A stretch of 64,000 nucleotides of DNA from Pseudofrankia sp. DC12 (GTDB lineage: Bacteria; Actinomycetota; Actinomycetes; Frankiales; Frankiaceae), in NCBI RefSeq assembly GCF_000966285.1, contig NZ_KQ031391.1, forward strand, positions 1,508,378 to 1,572,377. Direction: 5' to 3'. Shown here one piece after another: positions 23,216-36,186 of this stretch; positions within the stretch are counted from its first letter, which is position 1, and each line of letters starts with the position of its first letter. A model generated the notes under the pieces. It saw nothing but the letters and a program-made list of their open reading frames with translations, made no database searches and was not told where the DNA came from. A program made the translations under genes and the position numbers.

Positions 23216-23240
23216 GCGGCCGGCGGGACGCTCATGCGGC
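23201..23240 (-). repeat. 20-base tandem duplication at the ligase-thiolase junction
   Basis: The unit cggcgggacgctcatgcggc occurs at 23201-23220 and 23221-23240 without a mismatch. Each unit holds a cat (ATG on the minus strand). As a result the ligase stop at 23232-23234 overlaps an ATG that opens only MSVPPAA, whose stop (23212-23214) in turn overlaps the thiolase ATG. Confidence 0.95.
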
Positions 23241-24851
23241 CGGCGGCGCGGCGCCGGCGGCCTGCTTGGCCCAGGCGAGGTCGGCCTTCCCGGACGGCGT
23301 GCGCCGGACGGCCTCGACGAGCCGCAGCACCCGCGGCACCTTGTAGCCGGCGACGTGGGCACGGCAGTGCGTCTGCAGCTCGCCGAGCGTCGGCGCCTTC
23401 CCCGGCCGGGGCGCGACGATGGCGGCCACCGTCTCGCCCCAGCGCTCGTGTGGCACTCCGACGACGATCACGTCGTACACGTCCGGATGACTCTTGAGCG
23501 CACTCTCGACCTCCTCGGGGAAAATCTTCTCCCCACCGGAGTTGATGGTGGCCGAGCCGCGCCCGAGCAAGGTGATGCCGCCGTCGGCCTCCAGGCGGGC
23601 GAAGTCGCCGGGAACCGAGTAGCGACGCCCGTCCGGGCCGACGCGGAACACCTGGGCGGACCGTTCCGGGTCGCCTAGATAGCCGATCGGGATGTTGCCC
23701 CGGCGGGCCAGCCGGCCGATCTCGCCGGCCGGCAACGGCCGGAGGTTCTCGTCGACGACCAGCGCGTCGTCAATCGCCTTCACCCGGACGCCGGCCTGCT
23801 CGCCGGCCTGCCCCTTCGCCGAGATACTCACCCCGTGTGACCCGGCCTCGGAGGCGCCGACACCGTCGGTGACGACCAACCCGAGGCGTTCCATGAACGC
23901 CTCCTTGAGCACCGGCGAGAACAGCGCGGCGCTCGACGAGAGCGCGTACAGCGAGGAAAGGTCCAGCCCGGCACGCTGGGCGTCGTCCAGGGTGTCGAGC
24001 AACGGCCGGGCCATCGCATCCCCGGTGATCATGACCATGTTGACGCGCTCCGCCTCGACGAGGCGCCAGACCTCCACCGGGTCGAACGCGTCGACGAGGA
24101 CCGTGCGCTGGCCCTTGCTCAGCCCGGTGTTCAGGCACCACTGGGTGGCACCGTGCATGAGCGGCGCGATCGGCAGCGAGGTGACGACACCGCCGGCGCC
24201 CTTCTCGGTCAGGTCGGCCGGCCTGCTGGCCCGCTCCCCCGTCATCAGGTCGATGCCGCCGCCCAGGGCGAAGATGACGTCCTCCTGGCGCCAGAGCACG
24301 CCCTTGGGCAGGCCAGTCGTCCCACCGGTGTAGAGCAGGTAGTGGTCGTCACCGGAGCGCGGCTCGAAGTCCCGGCCCGGCCGGGAGGCGGCCAGCGCGT
24401 CCTCGTAGCGGACCGCGCCGAGCGCCTCGGCGTCGGCCCCGGCGGGATCGGTGCCGTCCTCGACGACGACGAGGTGGCGCAGGCTGGCGACCTTCGGCGC
24501 GACCTCGGCGACCCGGCCGGTGAACTGGCGCTGGAAGACCAGTGCGACGGGCGAGGCGTTGTCGAGCAGGTAGGCGAGCTCCTCGGCGACATACCGGAAG
24601 TTCACGTTCACGCAGACCGCGCGGATCTTGTAGATCGCGACCATCGTCTCGACCCACTCGGCGGCGTTGTAGGCGTAGATGGCGACGTGCGCGCCGGGTC
24701 CCACCCCGGCGCCGCGTAAGTGGTGCGCCATCCGGTTCGCGCGCTCCTCCAGCTCGGGGAAGGTGCGCCGGGCCGGGCCGGCGACGAGGGCGTCCCGTTC
24801 CGGGAAACGGTCCGCCGCGTGCTCGAAGAGGTCTGCGAGGTTGAACTCCAT
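23232..24851 (-). CDS. AMP-forming acyl-CoA synthetase
   Basis: A 539-residue ANL-family ligase. The ATP loop is YLLYTGGTTGLPKGVLWRQE (residues about 181-200); the A5-like motif is VVTDGVGASEAGSHG; then GRRYSVPGDFARLEADGGIT (A7) and GRGSATINSGGEKIFPEEVE (A8 hinge), and the catalytic Lys in RTPSGKADLAWAK near the C-terminus. The N-terminus MEFNLADLFEHAADRFPERD is typical of FadD17/FadD19-like enzymes that load steroid side chains or branched acids on CoA. It sits between the crotonase (23 bases upstream) and the thiolase genes in one minus-strand operon. Confidence 0.92.
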   Translation of the reverse strand: MEFNLADLFEHAADRFPERDALVAGPARRTFPELEERANRMAHHLRGAGVGPGAHVAIYAYNAAEWVETMVAIYKIRAVCVNVNFRYVAEELAYLLDNASPVALVFQRQFTGRVAEVAPKVASLRHLVVVEDGTDPAGADAEALGAVRYEDALAASRPGRDFEPRSGDDHYLLYTGGTTGLPKGVLWRQEDVIFALGGGIDLMTGERASRPADLTEKGAGGVVTSLPIAPLMHGATQWCLNTGLSKGQRTVLVDAFDPVEVWRLVEAERVNMVMITGDAMARPLLDTLDDAQRAGLDLSSLYALSSSAALFSPVLKEAFMERLGLVVTDGVGASEAGSHGVSISAKGQAGEQAGVRVKAIDDALVVDENLRPLPAGEIGRLARRGNIPIGYLGDPERSAQVFRVGPDGRRYSVPGDFARLEADGGITLLGRGSATINSGGEKIFPEEVESALKSHPDVYDVIVVGVPHERWGETVAAIVAPRPGKAPTLGELQTHCRAHVAGYKVPRVLRLVEAVRRTPSGKADLAWAKQAAGAAPPAA

Positions 24852-24874
24852 GGCTGAGCCCTCTCCGTCGTCGG

Positions 24875-25735
24875 TCAGCGCCCGGTGAAACGCGGGGTCT
24901 GCTTGTCGGCGAAGGCACGCGGGCCGATCTTCGCGTCGGCCGACAGGTAGACCCGCATGCCGATCTCGGACTCGATCCGGAACGCCTCGTCCTCCGGCAG
25001 CGACTCGGTCTCGCGCAGCGTCCGCAGCACGGCCTGCACGGCGACCGGCCCGTTCGCGGCGATCGCGTCGGCGATCTCCCGTGCCCTGGCCAGCGCGGTG
25101 CCGTCGGGGACGACGTAGTTGACCAGGCCGATCTCCTTGGCCTCAGCCGCCCCGAGGTGACGACCGGTCAACAGCAGGTCCGCGGCGACCGCGTAGGGAA
25201 CCTGTCGGCGCAGCTTCACCGCGGACCCGCCCAGCGGGAACAGCCCCCAGCGCACCTCGGAGACCCCGAACCGGGCCGACTCACCGGCCACCCGGATGTC
25301 GGTTCCCTGCAGGATCTCGGTGCCGCCCGCGATCGCCGGCCCCTCGACCGCCGCGATCAGCGGCTTGGCCAGGGTGAAGCCCTTCAGGACCCACTTCATG
25401 ACGGACATGTCCATCGCGAGCCGGGTCCCGTCACCGCCGCCGGTGAACGCCTCGCCGGGCGGCCGCCGGGACATCTGTTTCAGGTCGGCGCCGGCGCAGA
25501 AGGCTCCGCCGGCCCCGGTGAGGATCGCGACCCGGATGTCCGGGTCGGCGTTCACCTCGTCCCACGCCTTCTCCAGAATGCCGATCATCTCGGGGGTGAC
25601 GGCGTTGCGGGCGTGCGGCCGGTTGAGCGTGACGGTCAGGACGTGCCCGTCCCGCTCGACGAGGGCATGCGGCTGGGATCCGGTCACGGGCGCTCCTGTC
25701 GACGAGCCGTCGGGACCCGAGTCCGGCGCGGTCAC
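24875..25735 (-). CDS. Enoyl-CoA hydratase/isomerase (crotonase) family protein
   Basis: A 286-residue crotonase. GTG start at 25735 overlaps the dehydrogenase stop (GTGA). After a 26-residue polar leader, [20 protein letters not shown] opens the fold; [20 protein letters not shown] supplies one oxyanion-hole strand and [20 protein letters not shown] the second, followed by [20 protein letters not shown] with the catalytic-Glu region. The C-terminus [20 protein letters not shown] is typical of EchA19-like enzymes. It would hydrate the enoyl-CoA made by the two acyl-CoA dehydrogenases of this locus. Confidence 0.9.
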
Positions 25736-26943
25736 CGCGGCGGCCGGGGCAGGCCGAGGCCGAGCATCGCGATCATGTCGCGTTGGATCTCGTTGGTGCC
25801 GCCGCCGAAGGTGAGCATCAGGATCTGCCGGTAGGCCCGCTCCAGCCGGCCGGCGAGCACCGCGCCTGGCGAGTCCCGGCCTTCACCCGGCCCTGGCCGG
25901 GCCAGGTAGGCGTCGTCGTCGAGGCACTCCATCAGCAGCCGGTAGGCCTCGACCGCGAACTCGGTGCCGAAGATCTTCGTCGCGCTCGCCTGCGCCGGCC
26001 CGAGCCGCGCCCCGTGGTCGACTCCCCAGGCGATCTTCCAGTTGATCAGCTTGAGGAACTCGGCCTTGGCGTACACGGTCCCGAGATTGCGCCGCACCAG
26101 TGGCCGGTCGATGATCCGGCCGCCCTCCGGGGCCGGCGTCTCCTGCGCCCACCGCCGGGTCCACAGCAGCAGCTGCTGGATGCCCGCCGCCGAGCACAGC
26201 GCGACCCGCTCGTGGTTGAGCTGGCCTGTGATCAGCTTCCAGCCGCCGTTGACCTCGCCGACCAGCGCCTCGGCCGGCACGTGGACGTCGGTGTAGAAGG
26301 TCTGGCTGGTGATCCCGCCGGAGATCGTCGGGACCGGCGTCCAGGAGAAGCCCGGTGCGTCCGTCGGCACGCAGAACACCGACAGGCCGCGGTGGCGGGC
26401 CTGGGACTGGTCGGTGCGGGCGGCGAGCCAGACGTAGTCGGCGGCCTGGATGACCGACGTCCACATCTTCTGCCCGTTGATCACCCAGCCGTCGCCGTCC
26501 CGGTCGGCCCTGGTCCGCAGGCTCGCCAGGTCGGTCCCAGCACCGGGCTCGGAGTAGCCGATGGAGAAGTGCAGCTCGCCGGCCAGGATCTTCGGCAGGA
26601 AGAAGTCCTTCTGGTCCTGGGTGCCGTACTCCATGATCGTCGGACCGACGCTGTTCATCGTCAGCAGCGGGATCGGGACGCCGGCGAGCGTCGCCTCGTC
26701 GCCGAAGACCAGCTGTTCGAGCATGGTCCGGCCCTGGCCGCCGTACTCGGCCGGCCAGCCGATACCCAGCCAGCCGTCCTTGCCCATCTGGCGGATCACC
26801 CGGCAGTAGGCGCCGTCCTTTCCCAGCAGCGTCGTCTCGCCGGTGGCGAGCTCGGCGCCGAGCTCCGGCGTGACCAGCTGGGCGAAGTAGCCCCGCAGCT
26901 CCTGGCGCAGCCGCTCCTGCTCCTGGCTGTACGCGACGCGCAT
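25732..26943 (-). CDS. Acyl-CoA dehydrogenase (FadE28/34-type partner 1)
   Basis: A 403-residue ACAD. The start ATG at 26943 follows cgggagag. Motifs: [40 protein letters not shown] (FAD loop), [40 protein letters not shown], and [20 protein letters not shown] at the C-terminus. It is the first gene of a minus-strand operon (dehydrogenase, crotonase, ligase, thiolase) and is divergent from a second, shorter ACAD at 27115. Such unlike, adjacent ACAD pairs form alpha2-beta2 heteromers in cholesterol side-chain oxidation, which is the likely arrangement here. Confidence 0.92.
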
Positions 26944-27048
26944 CGGCTCTCCCGTCCGGCCGGCCCGGCCCGGCTCCTCGGCAGGCGGCGCCGCGACGCG
27001 AGCGACGCGGTACCCACCTGATGGGCCGTCAGACTGTGGTGACCGATG

Positions 27049-27077
27049 CTAGCGCGTGCGCTAGAACAAGTTCTAGC
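27049..27077. promoter_or_regulatory. Two overlapping palindromes, one KstR-like, in the divergent promoter
   Basis: gctagaacaagttctagc (27060-27077) is a perfect 8-bp-arm palindrome and fits TNNAACNNGTTNNA, the operator of the TetR-family cholesterol regulator KstR. The overlapping ctagcgcgtgcgctag (27049-27064) is a second perfect dyad that shares the ctag. Both lie between the divergent ACAD genes, 38 to 106 bases from the starts. Confidence 0.7.
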
Positions 27078-27114
27078 TTTAGAGGCCATCGCTGCTGACC
27101 GAGGAGCGCCCGCC

Positions 27115-28284
27115 ATGGATTTCGCCCACACCGAGGAACAGCGGGAGCTGACCGCCCTGGCGGCCCAGATCCTCGACAGGATGGTCACCCCCGAGCGGCT
27201 CACCGCGATCGAGGCCGACGTGCTCGCTGGCCACGGCGACGGCTTCGACCGGGACCTGTGGGCGGAGCTCGCGAAGGCGAACCTGCTGGGTGTCGGCGCC
27301 CCGGAGGAGTTCGGCGGCCTCGGCTACGGCGTGTTCGAGGAGTGCCTCGTGCTGGAGGCGGCGGGCCGGGTGCTGGCCCCGGTGCCGCTGTGGGCCTCGG
27401 CGTCGGCCGCCGCCGGCACGATCGCCGCCCACGGCACACCCGAGCAGCGCGACGCCTGGCTGCCGGCCGTCGTACGCGGCGAGAAGATCGTCACCGTCGC
27501 GCTCGCCGAGCCAGGCGGCCCGGACGCGGCCGGCCCCACCACGGCGGCGGCCCGGACGCCGGCGGGCTGGCGGCTGGACGGCGTGAAGACCGCGGTGCCG
27601 TTCGCCACGGTCGCCGACGCGGTCCTCGTCCCGGCCAGGACCGAGCGCGGGGTCGCGGTCTTCCTGGTCGACCCGGCAGCGGGCGGCGTGCGGGTCGAGC
27701 GCCAGCTCACCACGGCGCGCGAGGCCGTCGGGCTGCTCACGCTGGACGGCGTCCTCGTCGACGACGAGGCGCTGCTCGGCGGGCCCGACGGCGCGGTTGG
27801 CACCGATGTCGCCCTGGCGCTGCGCGACCGGGCGACGCTCGGGCTGTGCGCCCTCCAGCTCGGCGTCACCGAGCGGGCGATGCGGGCCGCCGCCGAGTAC
27901 ACCACCAACCGGGTCCAGTTCGGCCGCCCGATCGGGTCCTTCCAGGCCGTCGGGCACCGGCTGGCCGACTGCTTCATCGACGTCGAGGCGATCCGGCTGA
28001 CCCTGTGGCAGGCGGCCTGGCGGCTCGCCGAAGGGCAGGACGCGACGGAGGCGGTCGCCACCGCGAAGTTCTGGGCGGCCGACGGCGGGCACCGGGTCGC
28101 CAGCGCCGTCGTCCACGTCCACGGCGGCATGGGCGTCGCCGAGGAGTACTTCGTCCACCGCTACTTCCTGCACGCCAAGCGGCTGGAGTTCACCCTCGGC
28201 AACGCCCCCGAACAGGCCCGCCGCCTCGGCGCGCTCCTCGCCGACACCCCCCCTTGGCCCTCGATCCCGACGAGGACCACCTGA
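27115..28284 (+). CDS. Acyl-CoA dehydrogenase (shorter-active-site partner 2)
   Basis: A 389-residue ACAD. ATG 27115 (MDFAHTEEQRELTALAAQIL) has a gaggag ribosome site 9 bases upstream; an upstream ATG in frame at 27046 lies inside the operator and is unlikely. Motifs: LLGVGAPEEFGGLGYGVFEE, VTVALAEPGGPDAAGPTTAA in place of the usual FAD loop (weaker than in the partner), LRDRATLGLCALQLGVTERA, EYTTNRVQFGRPIGSFQAVG with the NRxQFG signature, and VVHVHGGMGVAEEYFVHRYF. The degenerate FAD-binding loop suggests it works as the partner subunit of the dehydrogenase at 25732-26943. Confidence 0.9.
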   Translation: MDFAHTEEQRELTALAAQILDRMVTPERLTAIEADVLAGHGDGFDRDLWAELAKANLLGVGAPEEFGGLGYGVFEECLVLEAAGRVLAPVPLWASASAAAGTIAAHGTPEQRDAWLPAVVRGEKIVTVALAEPGGPDAAGPTTAAARTPAGWRLDGVKTAVPFATVADAVLVPARTERGVAVFLVDPAAGGVRVERQLTTAREAVGLLTLDGVLVDDEALLGGPDGAVGTDVALALRDRATLGLCALQLGVTERAMRAAAEYTTNRVQFGRPIGSFQAVGHRLADCFIDVEAIRLTLWQAAWRLAEGQDATEAVATAKFWAADGGHRVASAVVHVHGGMGVAEEYFVHRYFLHAKRLEFTLGNAPEQARRLGALLADTPPWPSIPTRTT

Positions 28285-28351
28285 AAGAAGCCGCCTTCCA
28301 CCTCCGCCCCGGGGACGCGCTGCTCGCCGGCGGCCAGAGCCGGCGATCTCG

Positions 28352-28750
28352 ACGGGCGACTCAGGTCGGGCAGGTCCACGCCGACGCTGCGCAGGAGCTC
28401 GGTATAGATGTTCGGATGGTTGAGGTCCGGGTCACCGCCGCCCAGCTCGTCCGCGTAGATGCCGAACAGCAGGGCCCGCACCTCGTCCATCGGGCCGACC
28501 GGCGCTGTCCCTCGTAGCCAGCAGCCATCCGTCTGGTTGAAGGGGGCCATCTGCAGGATCCACTCGACGACGTCCGCGCGGGTCCGTTTCGTCCAGGCAC
28601 GGTCCGCCTCGTAGCGGTCCGCCTCGCCGGCCATCCGCTGGTAGACGGCGTCCAGTCGCGGGCCTACGCGGACAACCCGGCCCTCCTCGACTCGGCGTTC
28701 ACCCAACCGCTTTTCCTTTTGGTTCTCTCGCAGTTTCCGCAGGACTTCCA
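28352..28750 (-). pseudogene. Fragment of an iron-containing redox (haem-oxygenase-fold) enzyme
   Basis: The frame holds GPRLDAVYQRMAGEADRYEA, VVEWILQMAPFNQTDGCWLR, GPMDEVRALLFGIYADELGG and DPDLNHPNIYTELLRSVGVD, characteristic of the iron-containing redox enzyme family (HO-like diiron fold). Homology begins without a proper N-terminus and stops near 28365 in VDLPDL. No credible start precedes it. It is flanked on its 5' side by a protease remnant on the other strand. Confidence 0.65.
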
Positions 28751-28759
28751 TAGGGGGAC

Positions 28760-29019
28760 TTGTCGCGCAGCGGGCGCCAACGGCCGAGCTGGTCGCGCGC
28801 ACCGTGCTCGACCATGACGGCCTCAACGTCTCGTCCTGGGCCGTGGCGAACGCGATTGTCGACGTTCTCGACTTCGACATCGCGGTCCTCAACCTGTCGT
28901 TGTGCTGCGCGACCGCCAAGTTCGACGGCTACGCCCGTTGGAGTGGAACGTCGTTCGCCGCCGCCAACGTGAGCGGTGCCGTCGCCGCGCTCGTCGAGCC
29001 GGGCCACCGGAATGGCTAG
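28760..29019 (+). pseudogene. Internally deleted subtilisin (S8) peptidase remnant
   Basis: The frame reads PTAELVARTVLDHDGLNVSS, WAVANAIVDVLDFDIAVLNL, then jumps to FDGYARWSGTSFAAANVSGA. The GTSFAA block contains the catalytic Ser of S8 proteases and the earlier part resembles the strand that ends in NLSL, but the segment between them and the Asp and His regions are missing. It ends at a stop at 29017-29019. Confidence 0.65.
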
Positions 29020-29115
29020 GACGCCCTCGGCCTCCTCCGGGAAAAGGGGGTGCAGGGCGGCGACATCGTGGAGTACGGCCGAGCTACCAGCCCGATCTGT
29101 CGACGCAGGGAGTGG

Positions 29116-30048
29116 TCAGGGGATGGAGAAGGCGCGCCCGCCGGGGTCGGTGGTCGGCTGGCGGGCTCGAGGCGGCGGCTCAGGGGCCGGCGGGCCGGGG
29201 GGTGGCGGCGGGCCGGGGGGTGGCGGCGGGGTCGGGGTGGCCAGGTGGCGGTGGACGAGGCTGGCCAGGTCCCAGTGGTGCGGGTCGGCGAAGAACGAGC
29301 CGCGGTCAGTCGGGATGACGGCCAGGTGCAGCTCGGCCACCGGGGCGCGTTCCCAGCCGAGGCAGCGGGAGTCGTGCAGGGCCAGCTGGGACGGCAGGCC
29401 CCAGTTGCTCGTCCGGTCGGCGGGACGGGCCAGCACGACGGGCAGGTCCGACGGTCCCGGGCGGTAGGCGGCGTAGGCGCGCAGGGCGGCGGTGTAGGTG
29501 CCGATCGCCGCGAGCAGGTGGTCCTCATAGCCCGCCGGGTCCCGGGCACCGAGCGCGCGGGCGATCCGGGCGCCCTGCTCGGACAGCGGGGTCGCGTGGT
29601 CGATGCCGCAGCGGCAGGTGCCGTGCCACAGGCAGGGCAGGTGCCGCATCCGGGCCAGCTCCCGGATCGCCAGCTGGGGGTTCGGCCGCGGCGGCGGCTG
29701 GCCCGGCAGCGGCAGGGCGGCGTCGAACAGGATCACCGGGGCGACCGGCTGGCCGATCCCGCGCAGCAGCCGGCCCAGCTCGTAGGCGAGGATGCCGCCG
29801 AAGCCGTACCCGGCCAGCTGGAACGGCCCGCCCCACGGCTGGACGAGCAGCACCCCGGGCAGGAAGTAGGACGCCATCGCCCGGACGTCGTCCAGCGGCG
29901 GACGGGCGCCGTCGCGGCCCGGGAGATCCAGTCCCCGGCACGGCATCGTGTCGATCAGCGCGCTCGCCAGTGCCTGTCCCGGATGAGGCGGGCCTTCCAG
30001 CCCGCCCACGAAGAACAGCGGCGGACGCCGGTCTGGCTGCCCGCTCAA
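29116..30048 (-). CDS. Thioesterase-like alpha/beta hydrolase with Gly in place of the nucleophile Ser
   Basis: A 310-residue protein similar to the thioesterase domains of peptide and polyketide synthetases. I choose TTG 30048, which overlaps the stop of the upstream gene (TTGA) and places PPLFFVGGLEGP at the N-terminus, where the first strand belongs. The nucleophile elbow reads FQLAGYGFGGILAYELGRLL: the usual G-x-S-x-G is G-Y-G-F-G, so the catalytic Ser is Gly (about residue 82). Other parts are well kept (PVAPVILFDAALPLPG; IPTDRGSFFADPHHWDL near the expected His). The C-terminus is a proline-rich tail (PTPPPPPGPPPPPGPP). It ends a conservon operon, so a binding or scaffold role is more likely than hydrolysis. 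Confidence 0.7.
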   Translation of the reverse strand: MSGQPDRRPPLFFVGGLEGPPHPGQALASALIDTMPCRGLDLPGRDGARPPLDDVRAMASYFLPGVLLVQPWGGPFQLAGYGFGGILAYELGRLLRGIGQPVAPVILFDAALPLPGQPPPRPNPQLAIRELARMRHLPCLWHGTCRCGIDHATPLSEQGARIARALGARDPAGYEDHLLAAIGTYTAALRAYAAYRPGPSDLPVVLARPADRTSNWGLPSQLALHDSRCLGWERAPVAELHLAVIPTDRGSFFADPHHWDLASLVHRHLATPTPPPPPGPPPPPGPPAPEPPPRARQPTTDPGGRAFSIP

Positions 30049-30380
30049 GCGGGCCCGACCCAGCCGTCCGGCAGCACGTCGTGGGCCGGGCTGTGCAGCA
30101 GGTCGGCCAGCTCCGGGTAACTGGCGCCGGGAACAGCCGCGCGGGCCACGTCGAGCAGCGCGTGCGCGGCCAGCACCCATTCGGGGACACACCCGCCGGC
30201 GGTCACGCAGACGGCGGCCCACCGGTCGAGCAGGTGGGCGAGCTCGGCGGCCCGGTACGGCGGCATGCGCAGCACGACCGCCGGCAGGGTGGCCCCCGGC
30301 GGGTCTTCGACGACCATCCGCTGGGCGCGGTCGACGCGGATCTCGAGCTCGAGGTCGGCGACCCGGATGCCGGAGCTCAT
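30045..30380 (-). CDS. Unknown 111-residue protein of the conservon operon
   Basis: It starts MSSGIRVADLELEIRVDRAQ at 30380, 40 bases after the CvnD stop, and its TGA overlaps the TTG of the thioesterase-like gene. The first 40 residues look like beta-strands (VADLELEIRVDRAQRMVVED, LPAVVLRMPPYRAAELAHLL); the rest is helical (AELAHLLDRWAAVCVTAG, VLAAHALLDVARAAVPG). No signal peptide or membrane segment and no family recognised. Coupled translation suggests that it acts with the thioesterase-like protein and the GTPase. Confidence 0.7.
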   Translation of the reverse strand: MSSGIRVADLELEIRVDRAQRMVVEDPPGATLPAVVLRMPPYRAAELAHLLDRWAAVCVTAGGCVPEWVLAAHALLDVARAAVPGASYPELADLLHSPAHDVLPDGWVGPA

Positions 30381-30420
30381 CGCTCAGCCCTCCGGGGACG
30401 GGCGGGTGCAGCGGCGCATG

Positions 30421-31113
30421 TCAGGTCCTCGTTGGCAGGGGTGGCGTCGGGAGAGGTGCCCGAGCCGCGCGCGCCTCCTCGGCGAGGGTCGCGTCGAGGG
30501 CATGGCGGACGAGTTCGATCAGGGCGGCTCGGGAGGTGAACCGGCTGCGGGCGTCGCAGGACAGCACGGGATGGTCGATGTCGAGGGCACTGCGGACGTC
30601 CCCGACGGGGTGCTCGATCGCGCCGTCGAACCGGTTGACGGCGACGACGAACGGCACCCGCCGGTCCTCGAAGAAGTCGATCGCCGTGAAGCTGTCCTCA
30701 AGCCGCCGGGTGTCGGCGAGCACGATCGCGCCGACGGCGCCGAGCGTCAGCTCGTCCCACATGAACCAGAAGCGGTCCTGGCCGGGAGTGCCGAACAGGT
30801 ACAGCACCACATCCTGTTCGGGCAGGGTGATCCGGCCGAAGTCCATCGCCACGGTCGTCGTCGTCTTGCCCGCGACCTTGGAGGTGTCGTCGACGCCGAG
30901 CGCGGCCGCCGTCATGTGGGCCTCGGTGGTCAGCGGGGGGATCTCGCTGACCGCGCCGACGAAGGTTGTCTTCCCCACCCCGAAGCCGCCGGCGATAATG
31001 ATCTTCAAGGGGGTCGTGGTCGGCTCCTGGACGGTGTCGGAGCCGAGCGGGCTTGAGCTGCCGAGGCGTCCAGGGCCGCCGAGGTGGCCGGGGCTAGAGC
31101 CGCTGAAGTCCAT
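30421..31113 (-). CDS. cvnD: Conservon GTPase CvnD
   Basis: A 230-residue small Ras/MglA-like GTP-binding protein. After a 35-residue polar leader, LKIIIAGGFGVGKTTFVGAV carries the P-loop, EAHMTAAALGVDDTSKVAGK with TTTTVAMDFGRI is the switch I/effector region, LYLFGTPGQDRFWFMWDELT is the switch II (DxxGQ is here GTPGQD), and VVAVNRFDGA is the N-R-F-D version of NKxD typical of CvnD. In Streptomyces, CvnA-D form a membrane-tethered, G-protein-like signalling complex. The ATG overlaps the DUF742 gene by 20 bases. Confidence 0.92.
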   Translation of the reverse strand: MDFSGSSPGHLGGPGRLGSSSPLGSDTVQEPTTTPLKIIIAGGFGVGKTTFVGAVSEIPPLTTEAHMTAAALGVDDTSKVAGKTTTTVAMDFGRITLPEQDVVLYLFGTPGQDRFWFMWDELTLGAVGAIVLADTRRLEDSFTAIDFFEDRRVPFVVAVNRFDGAIEHPVGDVRSALDIDHPVLSCDARSRFTSRAALIELVRHALDATLAEEARAARAPLPTPPLPTRT

Positions 31114-31474
31114 CGAGGACCTTTCGCAACAGGGCGGAGTCGGGGCGCCAGTCGGGGCGCTCGGGCCGGTGCACCGCGACCAGGCCGTCGGCGGCCATGT
31201 CGGCGACCAGCACCTGGGCGACGCCCAGGGGCAGGTCCAGATGCGCCGAGATCTCCGCGACCGACTGCAGGTGCCGGCACAGGAAGGCGATGTCGCGCTG
31301 CTCGGGGGGCATGCCGGGCGGCGGGTTGCGTGCGGTCATCACGCCGCGGCTGGTGGTGGCCACCAGAGCGACCAGCTCCAGCGGGGCGGTGGGCCGGGTC
31401 CGCCCGCCGGTGACGGCGTACGGGCGTACGACCGGGCCCGCCTCCTCGTCGGGCAGTTCCTCGTCCCGGGTCAC
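31094..31474 (-). CDS. cvnC: Conservon DUF742 protein CvnC
   Basis: A 126-residue DUF742 protein. GPVVRPYAVTGGRTRPTAPL is the family signature (VRPYxxTxGRT), followed by LELVALVATTSRG and a winged-helix-like part RDIAFLCRHLQSVAEISAHL and DLPLGVAQVLVADMAADGLV. CvnC bridges CvnB and CvnD in the known conservons. It starts 8 bases after the roadblock stop and overlaps cvnD. Confidence 0.92.
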   Translation of the reverse strand: MTRDEELPDEEAGPVVRPYAVTGGRTRPTAPLELVALVATTSRGVMTARNPPPGMPPEQRDIAFLCRHLQSVAEISAHLDLPLGVAQVLVADMAADGLVAVHRPERPDWRPDSALLRKVLDGLQRL

Positions 31475-31482
31475 CGCGGCCT

Positions 31483-31875
31483 CTAGGCGTGCGCGCGCAT
31501 CGGCGGGGAGAGGACCTGCCCGGCGCGGGTCACGAGCCGGGCCATCTCGAACGCGATGACCCCCGGATCCGCGGCCGGGCTCGCGGCGACCGCGAGGCAG
31601 GAGCCGTCGCCGATCGCGGAGACGAACAGGTAGCCGCTGTCCATCTCGACGATCGTCTGGCGGACGTCGCCACCGTCCATATACCGCGACGCGCCGAGCG
31701 CCAGCGAGCGGAACCCGGAGGCGACGGCGGAGATGTGGTCGCCGCCCTCCCTGGTGAGCGCGGCCGAGCGGGCCAGCTGCAGGCCGTCGGCGGACAGCGC
31801 GACGGCCCAGTGGACGTCGACGATCCGGCGTTCCAGGTCGTTCAGCAGGAAGTCGAGGTTACCGGTGGGTGGCAT
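31483..31875 (-). CDS. cvnB: Conservon roadblock/LC7 protein CvnB
   Basis: A 130-residue roadblock/LC7 domain protein, from ATG 31875 with an aaagga ribosome site. LDFLLNDLERRIVDVHWAVA, LSADGLQLARSAALTREGGD, HISAVASGFRSLALGASRYM and IVEMDSGYLFVSAIGDGSCL follow the family pattern. Such proteins bind small GTPases and could act as an activating or anchoring partner of CvnD. It overlaps the end of cvnA by 17 bases. Confidence 0.93.
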   Translation of the reverse strand: MPPTGNLDFLLNDLERRIVDVHWAVALSADGLQLARSAALTREGGDHISAVASGFRSLALGASRYMDGGDVRQTIVEMDSGYLFVSAIGDGSCLAVAASPAADPGVIAFEMARLVTRAGQVLSPPMRAHA

Positions 31876-34654
31876 CGCCGATCCTTTCGTCGTCGCGGGG
31901 CGACCTGGCAGGGAGCCCTTGTTGGAAGCCAGCGCGGAAGGCCGTGACGAGGCGGCGGGCCTTCTCCGGGTCGGGGCCGCCGGCCCTGGGTCCGCCCCCG
32001 GCGACACCGCTGGTGGCATACCGGCCGCCGCGCAGCTCGGCGTTCAGGCTCTCGCCCCGGCTCCGTCGCGGTAGGTGCCCGATCCTCGGCTCGTCTTCGG
32101 GCCAGTCGTCCGGCTCCGGCACCGGGGCGGCGGACCAGGCCGCCGGCCGTTCGGGCCGCGGCGACGCGACGGCGCGGGCCGGCAGCCCGGGCCGTCCCGG
32201 CTGCCAGGAGTGGGTGTCCGGGGCAGGGCCGGTGGCGCGGGCGTCGTCCCGGTCCGGGTGGCGGACCGGCGGGGGCAGGAAGAAGCTGTCCCGGACCGCC
32301 GCGGGGACCAGCGGCCCGGTCGCCCGACGGCGGCCGAGGCCGTCGCCGCCGGCACCGCCGGCACCGCCGGCACCGCCGTGGCCGCCGTCGTGGCCGCAGC
32401 CGCCGTCATCGCCGTGGCCGCCGGCACCGCCGAAGCCGGCGTCGTGGCCGTAGTCGTAGCCGGCGTCGTGGCCGTAGTCGTAGCCGGCGTCGTGGCCGTA
32501 GTCGTAGCCGGCGTCGTGGCCGTAGTCGCTGTCGTGGGTGTACCGGGCGTCGTGGCCGTAGCCGGCGAAGTCGACCTCACTGTCGAGATCATCGTGACCG
32601 CCGAGGTCAGCACGCGGGTCAGCGGGCGACCCGGCTGCGGCCGCGGCAGGTGCCGGCGTCTCGTCGTAGCCGGAGCCGACGACGTCGAGCCGGTCGAACG
32701 CGCCCATCCGGGCCAGCGCGGCCCGCAGCGGCTCGTCGTCGGGCGGCCCGGCCAGGACGGGGGCGTCGGCCTCGGCGAGGACACTCGCCGGAAGCACCAC
32801 GACCGCGCTGACCCCGCCATAGGCACTGCGGGCGAGAGACACGTCGATCCCGTGCCGGCGGGCGAGGTTCGCGACCACCCAGAGCCCGAGCTTTTCCGCC
32901 TCCGACTCGGGGTGGAACGGCGGCGGGTCGGCCAGCCGCTGGTTGAGTCCGGCCAGCGCGGCCGGCTCGATGCCGATGCCGCGGTCGGAGACCTCGACCG
33001 CGATGCCCGCCCCGACCGGGTTGCCGGTGACGACGACCGGGGTCTGCTCGGGCGACATCTGGCACGCGTTCTCGATGAGCTCGGCGAGCAGGTGGATGAC
33101 GTCGCCGACCACCGGGCCGGCGATCCAGGCGTCGACGGTCGCGCTCGCCTCGACCCGGGTGTAGGCCTCGACCTCCGCCACGGCGGCCCGCATCGTGTCG
33201 ATCAGCTTGACCGGCTGGCGGAAGACCCGGCTCGGCTGGCCGCCGGACAGCGCGATCTGGCCCTCGACCTCCCGGCGCATCCTGGTGGCCAGGTGGTCGA
33301 GGCGGAAGAGCCGCTCCAGCATGTCGGGATCCTGCTGGTCGCGCTCCAGAACCGTGATCAGCTTGAGTTGGCGGTGGATCAGCGTCTGGCTGCGGCGGGC
33401 CAGGCTCTGCATCGACGACGACAGCGAGTTCTGCGCGGCCACCTCGGTCGCCGCCAGCACGGCGGCGGCGTAGACGGAGCGCAGCGCGCGGGAGACGTCA
33501 CCGATCTCGTCCTCGGGAACCAGGCCGGCCCGCTCGTCCGGGTCGCCGGCCAGGCCGGCCGGGTCCACCGGGCGACGGTCCCGGATCGCGGCCGTGACCG
33601 AGGGAAGCCGCTGCTCGGCGACGGTCACCGCGTCGGCCCGCAGGGCGCGCAGCTGCCGGACGAGCCGCCGCGCGATCACCACGGACACGACGATCGCCAG
33701 CAGCATGACCGCGGCCGCCGCGCCACCGACGAGCGCGGCGCGCCCGCGGGCGGCGGAGACCAGCGAGCTGCTCTGGTCCGCCAGACTCAGGTTGATCTGA
33801 GCCTCGACGGCCCGCAGCTGGTCGATCTTCGAGTTGACGTTGCCGAGCCAGACGGCGGGCTGGACGTCGATGGGCCGCCCGGCCGCGGCCGCGGCCAGAA
33901 CCTGGTCGCGCAGCGCGTTGACCGGGTCGATGGTCGGCCCGACGCGCTGGTCGTAGAGGCGGCGCTGGTCGTCACTGGCCGCGGCGTCGAACTCGGCCAG
34001 CCAGGCCGCCTCTGCGCCGGTCGCGGTCCGGATGCGCCCGACGTTGTCGGCGACCCGGTCGTGCAGGAACACGGTGAGCGAGACGTAGCCGCGCTGCTGG
34101 GCGGTCTGCTCCGTGACGGCGCTGATCGCGGCGAGCGCGGTGGCCGTCCGCACGAGCTGCGAGCTCGCGGTGCCGAGGCCGATCTGGGCCGAGGACACCC
34201 CGAGCCACGCGCCGACGATGTTGTCGTAGCCGTCCGAGACCGGGCTGATCGTGGCGGTACGGGCATCGACCTGGCTGCGCAGGCCGGGCAGCTGGCTCAT
34301 CTGCTGCTGGGCCGCGGCCAGGGACGCGTGCAGCCGCGCGTCGTCGGGCGCGCCCGAGGCGGCGGCCGTGACCTGGCGGTAGGCCTCGTCAACCGGGCCG
34401 CGGGCCGCCGCGGTGTCGGCCTGCATCACGACATAGCCGGAGGCGACGAACGACGACGTGGCGTACCGCTCCTGGGCGAGCGCGCGGACCAGGACGTTCA
34501 CCTTGATCGTGAGCTGGGCCGCGGTCCGGGTTCGCCCGGCGGCGTGCGCCGCCTGCAGCTGGCCGACCACGAGGGCCGCGCTCAGGCCGGCGACCGCCAG
34601 CAGCGGCACGACCAGCGCGGCCGCGAGTCGGTACCGAACCGGCCAGCGCTCCAT
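31859..34654 (-). CDS. cvnA: Conservon sensor histidine kinase-like protein CvnA
   Basis: A 931-residue membrane sensor. ATG 34654 has gggag upstream; the in-frame TTG at 34660 is less likely. One membrane segment lies at residues about 10-33 (LAAALVVPLLAVAGLSAALV), then an extracellular nitrate/nitrite-sensor-like helical domain with TAQQRGYVSLTVFLHDR, a second segment near 310-330 (VGGAAAAVMLLAIVVSVVIA), a HAMP-like region, and an HATPase domain: LLAELIENACQMSPE (N box), VEVSDRGIGIEPAAL (G1), EKLGLWVVANLARRHGI (G2). The phospho-acceptor His of ordinary kinases is replaced by IHRQLKLITVLERDQ typical of CvnA. The C-terminal 280 residues are low-complexity, with a GHDAGYDY tandem repeat and a Gly/His-rich stretch. 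Confidence 0.92.
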   Translation of the reverse strand: MERWPVRYRLAAALVVPLLAVAGLSAALVVGQLQAAHAAGRTRTAAQLTIKVNVLVRALAQERYATSSFVASGYVVMQADTAAARGPVDEAYRQVTAAASGAPDDARLHASLAAAQQQMSQLPGLRSQVDARTATISPVSDGYDNIVGAWLGVSSAQIGLGTASSQLVRTATALAAISAVTEQTAQQRGYVSLTVFLHDRVADNVGRIRTATGAEAAWLAEFDAAASDDQRRLYDQRVGPTIDPVNALRDQVLAAAAAGRPIDVQPAVWLGNVNSKIDQLRAVEAQINLSLADQSSSLVSAARGRAALVGGAAAAVMLLAIVVSVVIARRLVRQLRALRADAVTVAEQRLPSVTAAIRDRRPVDPAGLAGDPDERAGLVPEDEIGDVSRALRSVYAAAVLAATEVAAQNSLSSSMQSLARRSQTLIHRQLKLITVLERDQQDPDMLERLFRLDHLATRMRREVEGQIALSGGQPSRVFRQPVKLIDTMRAAVAEVEAYTRVEASATVDAWIAGPVVGDVIHLLAELIENACQMSPEQTPVVVTGNPVGAGIAVEVSDRGIGIEPAALAGLNQRLADPPPFHPESEAEKLGLWVVANLARRHGIDVSLARSAYGGVSAVVVLPASVLAEADAPVLAGPPDDEPLRAALARMGAFDRLDVVGSGYDETPAPAAAAAGSPADPRADLGGHDDLDSEVDFAGYGHDARYTHDSDYGHDAGYDYGHDAGYDYGHDAGYDYGHDAGFGGAGGHGDDGGCGHDGGHGGAGGAGGAGGDGLGRRRATGPLVPAAVRDSFFLPPPVRHPDRDDARATGPAPDTHSWQPGRPGLPARAVASPRPERPAAWSAAPVPEPDDWPEDEPRIGHLPRRSRGESLNAELRGGRYATSGVAGGGPRAGGPDPEKARRLVTAFRAGFQQGLPARSPRDDERIGDATHR
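32435..32530 (-). repeat. 24-base tandem repeat inside cvnA (4 units)
   Basis: Four head-to-tail units beginning gccggcgtcgtggccgtagt encode GHDAGYDY repeats; three are identical and the last differs in the final bases. Further degenerate units (YGHDARYTHDSDYGHD) continue the pattern. The unit length keeps the reading frame when copies are gained or lost. Confidence 0.95.
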
Positions 34655-35169
34655 CTTCAACTCCCGTTCGACGGCCCGCCGCCATTACGGCAAAGGCCGC
34701 AAAAGGGCAGAGGCGCGCCAGGCCGGACCAGGGACACGAGGGGTGGTCCCTTCCGTCAGGGTCAGTCGAGGGGGTCGCGGCGGCCGGCACCCATCCGTGG
34801 GGATTTCTACCGGGAGTGCCAGGCCCGTCCCGGCGCGTCGCAGAAAAGTAGCCCGGCCCTGCCCTTCAGGGGAAGGTTTTGGGCGTGGCCAGCTTTGGCC
34901 ACCTGTCCACATGTGGCCAAGCCTCGGAAACCTGTTCGTAACAATTGCCCTGGCGCTGCGCAGTCAGGCCGAGAACGGTGTGCGCAATAGGCCTATTAGT
35001 GCTATTGATCGTCTTGGGTGGGACCAGATCGGGACAACTCCCCCTTCCCTGGATCACGCGCACGGGGCACGATTCCGCCACCCCTGTACTACGACGCCGG
35101 GTAGCTGACGAACCACGGAAGCCAACGAACCACGGAAGCCAACGAACGACGCGAAACACGGACGCCACG
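34655..35169. promoter_or_regulatory. Divergent regulatory region, cvn operon and HTH regulator, with 17-base tandem repeat
   Basis: No convincing gene. The part from 34860 to 35060 is AT-richer. At 35110-35143 a 17-base unit gaaccacggaagccaac is present twice in direct tandem, followed by a partial third copy gaacgacg, just before the TTG start of the regulator. These could be operator or iteron-like binding sites. Confidence 0.5.
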
Positions 35170-36186
35170 TTGACCAACCTCGATTTTCTGGGCCTGACCC
35201 CGTTCGGCCAACAGGTCTACGAACAGGTGGCCCTGCACCCATATGCCGACACCGACGGCATAGCGGGCTTCCTTGGCGCCGACGTCGCCGCCGTGGCCGC
35301 CGAACTGCGCGATCAGGCGAACCGCGGCCAGATCCGCTCGGTGGGAGGCGCCTGGCTGGCCGAGGACCTGACCCAGTGGCTGGACACCGAGCACGCCCGT
35401 CAGCAGGCAGAACAGGCGACCGCCGCGGCCGAACGGGCCCGGCAGCGTTCCCGACTGCTGCGCAGTCGTCTTCCGGCGGCACATCGGCAGGGCACCCGAA
35501 AACTCGTGGGCAACGACGGCACCGAGCTCGTCACCCACGGGGAGGTGAGCATCCGGATCGCGGAGCTCGCCGAACAGTCCACCGACACGCTGCGGTTCAT
35601 GCTCAACGGCAACGCGGGATTCGGCCCCAACCCGCATGTCATCCGGGCCTTCGTCAGCGCGGCGAAGCGCGGGGTACGGCTGACCAGCGTCTGGACGCCC
35701 GAATGCATCGCCGCCGCGCGCGGAGCGCCGAACGGGCGGTTACCACCGCTGGGCCAGGTGCATGCCAGCCGTGACGTGCCCTACCGCGCCGTGGTCGCCG
35801 ACGGGCGGGCGGTCCTCGTGCAGCGCGAGCCCGACGATCCGAGCCTGGGTGCCCTCGTCATCACGCACCATCCGACGGTGGCGCTGTACGCGCACCTCAT
35901 CGACGCGCTGTTCCGGGCCGGGCAGCCGCTGTCACCGAACGTGCCCCCGCCGCCGGCGGAGCACACGTTCGACCCGCAGCGCGAGTCCCAGATCCTGCAC
36001 CTGATCGCGACCGGTGCGACGAACGACCTCATCGGCAAGAATCTCGGCGTCTCGACCCGCACCGTCCAGCGCGAGGTGAGCCGCCTGATGGAGCGCTACC
36101 AGGCGCGCAACCGGATCGAGCTGATCAGCCTCACCACGGACCTGCCGGCCGACCAGCTCGGCGACGCCGTCGGCAACGGGAGCTGA
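35170..36186 (+). CDS. Helix-turn-helix regulator (TrmB-like N-terminus, LuxR-type C-terminus)
   Basis: A 338-residue protein. I use TTG 35170 (MTNLDFLGLTPFGQQVYEQV), since conserved sequence starts there; the frame is open back to a TTG at 34945, which would put the tandem repeat into coding sequence. Residues 1-75 form a winged helix (YADTDGIAGFLGADVAAVAA), followed by a coiled-coil-like Arg/Ala/Gln helix. The centre (STDTLRFMLNGNAGFGPNPH, VIRAFVSAAKRGVRLTSVWT) resembles the phospholipase-D-like domain of TrmB regulators. The C-terminus holds a LuxR HTH: ESQILHLIATGATNDLIGKN, LGVSTRTVQREVSRLMERYQ. It is divergent from the conservon and may control it. Confidence 0.82.
   Translation: MTNLDFLGLTPFGQQVYEQVALHPYADTDGIAGFLGADVAAVAAELRDQANRGQIRSVGGAWLAEDLTQWLDTEHARQQAEQATAAAERARQRSRLLRSRLPAAHRQGTRKLVGNDGTELVTHGEVSIRIAELAEQSTDTLRFMLNGNAGFGPNPHVIRAFVSAAKRGVRLTSVWTPECIAAARGAPNGRLPPLGQVHASRDVPYRAVVADGRAVLVQREPDDPSLGALVITHHPTVALYAHLIDALFRAGQPLSPNVPPPPAEHTFDPQRESQILHLIATGATNDLIGKNLGVSTRTVQREVSRLMERYQARNRIELISLTTDLPADQLGDAVGNGS

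Follow-up and report, generated by a model that had tools for sequence, protein, structure and literature searches.

Downstream of a complete conservon in the window analysed here, a 64,000-nucleotide stretch of the Pseudofrankia sp. DC12 genome (contig NZ_KQ031391.1, positions 1,508,378 to 1,572,377), lie two further genes, encoding a 111-residue protein (U) and a thioesterase-family protein (TE*). Our analysis shows that TE* is a maintained member of its family without the Ser-His-Asp triad, genetically tied to one clade of conservons, and suggests that it is probably a non-enzymatic sensor or scaffold part of a signalling operon. The features of TE* that bear on these statements are, in window positions:

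29116..30048, minus strand: TE*, 310 residues, Ser-less thioesterase-fold protein; its TTG start overlaps the stop codon of U
29797..29811, minus strand: nucleophile elbow of TE*, G80-Y-G82-F-G84 (residues 80-84), with Gly at the Ser position
29596..29634, minus strand: C139-x-W-x-G-x-C145-x-C147-G-x-D-H151 of TE*, invariant; probably in the lid region (position relative to 4zxh)
29302..29304, minus strand: R249 of TE*, at the catalytic His position
29116..29238, minus strand: proline-rich C-terminal tail of TE*, varying in sequence and length among relatives

Loss of the catalytic triad in a maintained protein

TE* matched the Pfam family Thioesterase (PF00975; E = 9.6e-16, with a score of 59.1 bits where the curated cut-off is 26.4), and its profile matches in the PDB were thioesterases of nonribosomal peptide synthetases (NRPS) and polyketide synthases (PKS). 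The first-pass annotation of this DNA had described a thioesterase fold in which G-x-S-x-G is replaced by GYGFG, and both the replacement (at residues 80-84) and, given the Pfam match, the family assignment hold. Profile alignment to the NRPS thioesterase 4zxh, by which we mapped the triad residues, additionally placed R249 at the catalytic His position, a loss that the annotation did not remark; of the three residues expected in an active serine thioesterase, the window's TE* retains the Asp and lacks the Ser and the His. We take this residue, Asp109, to be the catalytic Asp after strand 6.

The eight genomes of the genus contained 29 matches, which divided into 11 close TE* proteins (56-100% identical and represented in each of the eight genomes) and 18 weaker thioesterase matches (L014-L031); the genome studied here carries two TE* proteins, 61-64% identical to each other. 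All 18 weaker matches have G-x-S-x-G, whereas none of the 11 TE* proteins has the nucleophile Ser, its position being occupied by Gly in eight, Ala in two and Asp in one (L041, G007:C800, with the elbow GVDFG). The loss is therefore neither chance nor a local mutation, and close homologues with an intact Ser, which the annotation had named as the finding that would overturn its claim, were not among the 11. The catalytic His position holds Arg in eight TE* proteins and His in three (L035, L036 and L037), while Asp109 is invariant in all 11, leaving those three with both the His and the Asp of the triad.

Downstream of Asp109, all 11 TE* proteins share the motif C-x-W-x-G-x-C-x-C-G-x-D-H. The underlying pattern C-x(4-8)-C-x-C occurred in none of 21 other thioesterase-like segments scanned, and the motif is absent from the four PDB alignments displayed. 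From the 4zxh alignment and the usual layout of the fold, the region presumably corresponds to the thioesterase lid. A possible explanation is that TE* acquired the motif, as a metal or redox element, once it was no longer catalytic.

The TE* clade is under purifying selection. Ratios of nonsynonymous to synonymous substitution rates (dN/dS) were 0.08-0.28 in the nine closest pairs, none of the 11 matches contains an internal stop, and 96 of 270 core residues are invariant across the 11 members, including the elbow glycines, Asp109 and the new motif; on dN/dS and conservation we reject a decaying pseudogene. The proline-rich tail reported by the annotation is present in all 11 aligned proteins, though neither its sequence nor its length is well conserved. 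A tree of 30 rows placed all TE* proteins in a single group, with support 99 and a long stem; since many of the non-TE* rows were short and the program warned of long branches meeting, the tree leaves the sister group of TE* unsettled.

A pattern-based scan of 84,980 species recovered six close TE* loci, each in a Frankia or Pseudofrankia record. It also gave three weak loci (L060-L062): L062 has Ser in its elbow (GFSGG), L060 (an Eremiobacterota record) has one segment with Ser (GHSFG) and another with Cys (GFCAS), and no segment of L061 passed. The GFCAS segment of L060, with Cys at the nucleophile position, shares 38% identity with TE* along part of its length.

The conservon clade and its companion genes

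The conservon lies on the minus strand in the order cvnA-B-C-D, followed by U and TE*, within a 6.88-Mb single-contig genome; the gene order and coordinates given by the annotation for cvnB, cvnC, cvnD, the 111-residue U and TE* were correct. Its genes and the neighbouring regulator (REG) are:

31859..34660, minus strand: cvnA, 933 residues, NIT-sensor histidine kinase (NIT and HATPase_c by Pfam), with LPRR in its C-terminal extension
31483..31875, minus strand: cvnB, Roadblock/LC7 (Pfam)
31094..31474, minus strand: cvnC, DUF742 (Pfam)
30421..31113, minus strand: cvnD, small GTPase, with the P-loop GGFGVGKTT seen in translation
30045..30380, minus strand: U, 111 residues, conservon-associated, predicted beta-hairpin and two helices, no Pfam or PDB match
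35194..36186, plus strand: REG, divergent LuxR-type (GerE) regulator, true start uncertain (open frame from 34945)

HATPase_c, Roadblock, DUF742 and small GTPase genes thus stand in one operon order, as in other conservons. The best Pfam model for CvnD was ATP_bind_1, with Ras and other GTPase models below their cut-offs. The LPxR motif that PMC4316618 gives as a conservon feature of the CvnA C-terminal extension is present as LPRR (read in translation, with no model used). The variable linker of CvnA also contains tandem GHDAGYDY repeats, seen in translation at about 32400-32570 inside cvnA. No sigma-70-type promoter was found, and a single terminator-like match was at chance level. The annotation had further taken the TTGA overlap of U and TE* as a sign of tight coupling; the overlap exists in the window and is not a family feature, because the TE* start is not conserved in close orthologues, two of which carry an ATG 15 bases further upstream, at a site that reads CTG in the window, and one of these two has no TTG.

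The annotation made its claim depend on a conserved CvnD neighbourhood, and this was found: cvnA-D lie upstream of the module in 10 of 11 TE* loci (the window and nine of ten relatives). The CvnA proteins of the U-bearing conservons and of two U-less orthologues formed one group of 16 rows with support 99, in a comparison whose outside rows numbered only three (this genome's other conservons, long-branched and one a fragment) and which left out L035. The NIT domain of the window's CvnA (E = 5.4e-39, Pfam) recurred in 18 of 19 CvnA rows scanned, the 970-residue CvnA of L035 not being among them. We take L126, another conservon of this genome, as the row without NIT, since only a 228-residue fragment of it was scanned and the complete frame, of 440 residues, looks cytosolic. 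By this reading NIT is not confined to the U clade, because L124 and L125, conservons of the same genome without U, have it too.

At L126 itself (L126:4539-8765; G000:C1 ~5481538-5485764), where the 440-residue, cytosolic-looking kinase frame appears to lack NIT, a styrene-monooxygenase-type flavoprotein gene (Smoa_sbd, E = 2.5e-44) starts at the end of cvnD with a few-base overlap. A redox-enzyme accessory with a sensor-less kinase agrees with the published pattern, although the enzyme is not a P450.

U had no Pfam or NCBIfam match. Its model (mean predicted local distance difference test score, pLDDT, 77) has a beta-hairpin and two helices; Foldseek gave a best E of 1.2 against the PDB, and a PDB sequence profile search gave nothing. 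A profile of U detected the gene in 14 of the 35 family genomes: all eight of this genus and all six of a second genus, in each of which it follows cvnD; overall U adjoins conservon genes in 15 of 16 loci in the two Frankiaceae genera and thereby marks a conservon clade wider than that with TE*. We found no convincing U outside Frankiaceae in 393 class genomes (a set that takes in no fewer than 34 of the family's 35), a search of limited sensitivity in which at most 12 candidates were scored per genome; the only match outside the family was weak and had internal stops. U accompanies TE* at nine of 11 loci, in two tandem copies at L038, L039, L040 and L042, so the pairing claimed by the annotation is common without being obligate, U being deleted in L033 and L034.

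A third gene, X (~280-330 residues), lies between U and TE* in L035, L036, L037, L039 and L040. Across the four X rows that were aligned, C33-x2-C36 and H67-x2-C70 are invariant. X was not found at the window's TE* locus. At this genome's second TE* locus (L042, G000:C1 ~267530-268000) it is in pieces in different frames, with TE* and U intact, and at L092 (G003:C98) a U-clade conservon has cvnA-B-C, then U, then X, with no cvnD or TE* detected.

The LuxR-type regulator is a fixed neighbour. Like REG in the window, a homologue (33-95% identical) lies no more than ~1 kb from cvnA in every one of the 16 other conservons of the clade that were fetched, divergent in this genus and co-directional in the second. 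The three other conservons of this genome have no REG nearby, and the five places in the genome that matched REG at E <= 1e-12 all lie away from them; a single 36-residue stretch of L124, elsewhere in that locus, matched it. Among the 35 family genomes REG occurred in 14, comprising 13 of the 14 with U (all but G007) and one without U (G022). Relatives of REG elsewhere in several genomes mean that its family is not exclusive to these loci.

Proposed role of TE* and competing explanations

How conservons receive their signals and which proteins act downstream is a largely open field. Accessory genes following the four core genes cvnA-B-C-D are known as CvnE (cytochrome P450) or CvnF (GAF), overwhelmingly with CvnA proteins lacking sensory domains, as described in the accessible part of PMC13343842. 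The present loci share that layout and differ from it in their accessories (U, X and the Ser-less thioesterase), in a NIT-bearing CvnA and in the LuxR-type regulator fixed beside the locus. Neither U nor TE* matched GAF at E <= 1, and P450 was also unmatched (Pfam). Another likeness is to the mycobacterial Mfp conservon, which is directly followed by the gene for MfpA, a pentapeptide-repeat protein; U and TE* had no Pfam match to that family. With type I thioesterases of NRPS and PKS (4zxh, NocB 6ojc/6ojd, Pks13), TE* has in common its sequence family, the elbow glycines and Asp109; unlike them it is without Ser and usually without His, is free-standing, carries the Cys-rich motif and lies in a regulatory operon. 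RsbQ, which belongs to a different branch of the alpha/beta hydrolase fold and has an intact triad, is likewise an alpha/beta hydrolase in a signalling module. This free-standing protein forms a signalling pair with RsbP (PMC3183031). No description of a conservon with a thioesterase or pseudo-thioesterase, and no paper on conservons of Pseudofrankia or on pseudo-thioesterases, was found in the literature searched, which consisted of titles and the starts of abstracts with subscription papers mostly outside it. Since the module fits neither published accessory family by sequence, we regard it as a new conservon variant with a pseudo-thioesterase. It constitutes a third accessory module, on a sensor-keeping kinase, beside the P450 and GAF types reported in the accessible part of the 2026 survey PMC13343842.

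The account we favour, to which we give roughly even chances, is that of a lineage-specific conservon extended stepwise, with TE* as a non-hydrolytic ligand-binding or docking subunit. TE* would keep the thioesterase ligand pocket and bind without cleaving, and its state would be passed to the conservon via U where U is present. Two routes are conceivable. TE* may lie downstream of CvnD-GTP, like MfpA of the mycobacterial system, which is reported to bind the GTP-bound GTPase MfpB (PMC4316618). Alternatively it may act onto CvnA, as does CvnF8, which binds and stimulates CvnA8 (PMC13343842). We place the CvnD-side route slightly ahead, because CvnA has its own NIT sensor and would have less need of an extra one. 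The adjacent REG would be the likely output, and this fixed LuxR-type neighbour makes the signalling path genetically testable. The annotation's proposal of a non-catalytic sensor or scaffold linked to CvnD accordingly survives in its first part, as the best reading of a lost Ser in a kept neighbourhood; the partner need not be CvnD. The order in which parts were gained can be read from their distribution, the simplest assembly being U (with the LuxR-type regulator), then X, then TE*.

In a bolder version, which we judge unlikely, TE* would be a receptor and its conservons a class of their own. Its pocket would recognise an acyl or peptidyl signal, either free or linked as a thioester, with the acquired Cys-rich motif as its metal or redox switch; via the novel adaptor U it would set the Ras-like GTPase and drive the LuxR-type regulator.

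TE* might instead still be an enzyme, in which a cluster of C139, C145, C147, D150 and H151, perhaps with a metal, performs new chemistry, and the conservon regulates TE* or responds to its product, an arrangement that may also apply to the P450-type CvnE. The confinement of the motif to TE* (11 of 11, against none of the 21 other segments) and the His and Asp retained in L035-L037 suit such a rebuilt enzyme, as does the presence of an enzyme family, P450, among known accessories (PMC13343842, accessible part) and of a styrene-monooxygenase-type gene after cvnD at another conservon here. The nucleophile (G/A/D) and base (R/H) positions vary, however, which is unusual for conserved chemistry, and the four PDB alignments offer no precedent for the motif; we doubt this explanation. 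We think it similarly improbable that TE* and U are purely structural, with the proline-rich tail and fold surface tethering conservon proteins and no small-molecule ligand involved: the tail in all 11 aligned members, the loss of catalytic residues and the one or two tandem copies of U would fit a scaffold, but it is the tail that is poorly conserved and the core, including the elbow glycines and Asp109, that is strictly conserved. Other parts of the module do decay (U deleted in two orthologues, X broken at this genome's second locus), which would fit TE* as an inert passenger or a gene decaying after enzyme loss. This is highly improbable, since TE* itself has low dN/dS in its closest pairs, no internal stops and an invariant core that includes the new motif.

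Several observations weigh against our preferred reading of TE* as a non-hydrolytic subunit of the conservon. At L041, on a 6-kb contig of the metagenome-derived genome G007, U sits next to TE* with no conservon nearby, and the best CvnC elsewhere in G007 is only 65% identical. In the closest orthologues of the window's locus, L033 and L034, TE* is intact and U is deleted except for remnants, so U is not an indispensable adaptor everywhere, unless the U that these genomes have at their second locus acts in trans. For distant TE* pairs dN/dS rises to 0.33-0.68, although we think that their dS is underestimated in this high-GC DNA. The known range of TE* is one genus and eight genomes (all eight genomes of the genus positive, with no match at E <= 1e-20 in the family's 27 other genomes). 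Finally, the AlphaFold model of TE* (mean pLDDT 49.5) is too poor for pocket analysis. The best Foldseek matches of this model were NRPS/PKS thioesterases (best E 7.6e-5, TM-scores ~0.3), which count for little given its quality.

Flanking genes

The annotation had also linked TE* to acyl or peptidyl carrier metabolism. Genes for FadD, an enoyl-coenzyme A (CoA) hydratase and two acyl-CoA dehydrogenases lie at 23232-28284 of the window; acyl-CoA dehydrogenases recur beside L033 and L034 and a hydratase beside L034, and none of the four was found in the other eight fetched loci, whose stretches end near there (L041 comprising only 6 kb). Nine flanking genes from six relatives' loci belonged to varied families, two without a match, and none matched carrier-protein, adenylation or ketosynthase families; one, a short-chain dehydrogenase, also matched the related ketoreductase and enoyl-acyl-carrier-protein-reductase models. 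With no recurrence beyond L033 and L034 and no carrier protein, we set aside an argument from neighbourhood for a link to acyl metabolism, the nine genes being weak evidence.

Between TE* and the acyl-CoA dehydrogenase gene, positions 28161-29020 hold apparent gene remnants, and 28251-29112 is missing from the matches to the two orthologous loci. One remnant frame matches positions 2-70 of 177 of the PF14518 (haem-oxygenase-like) profile, and another, on the plus strand, reads by eye as a subtilase-like end.

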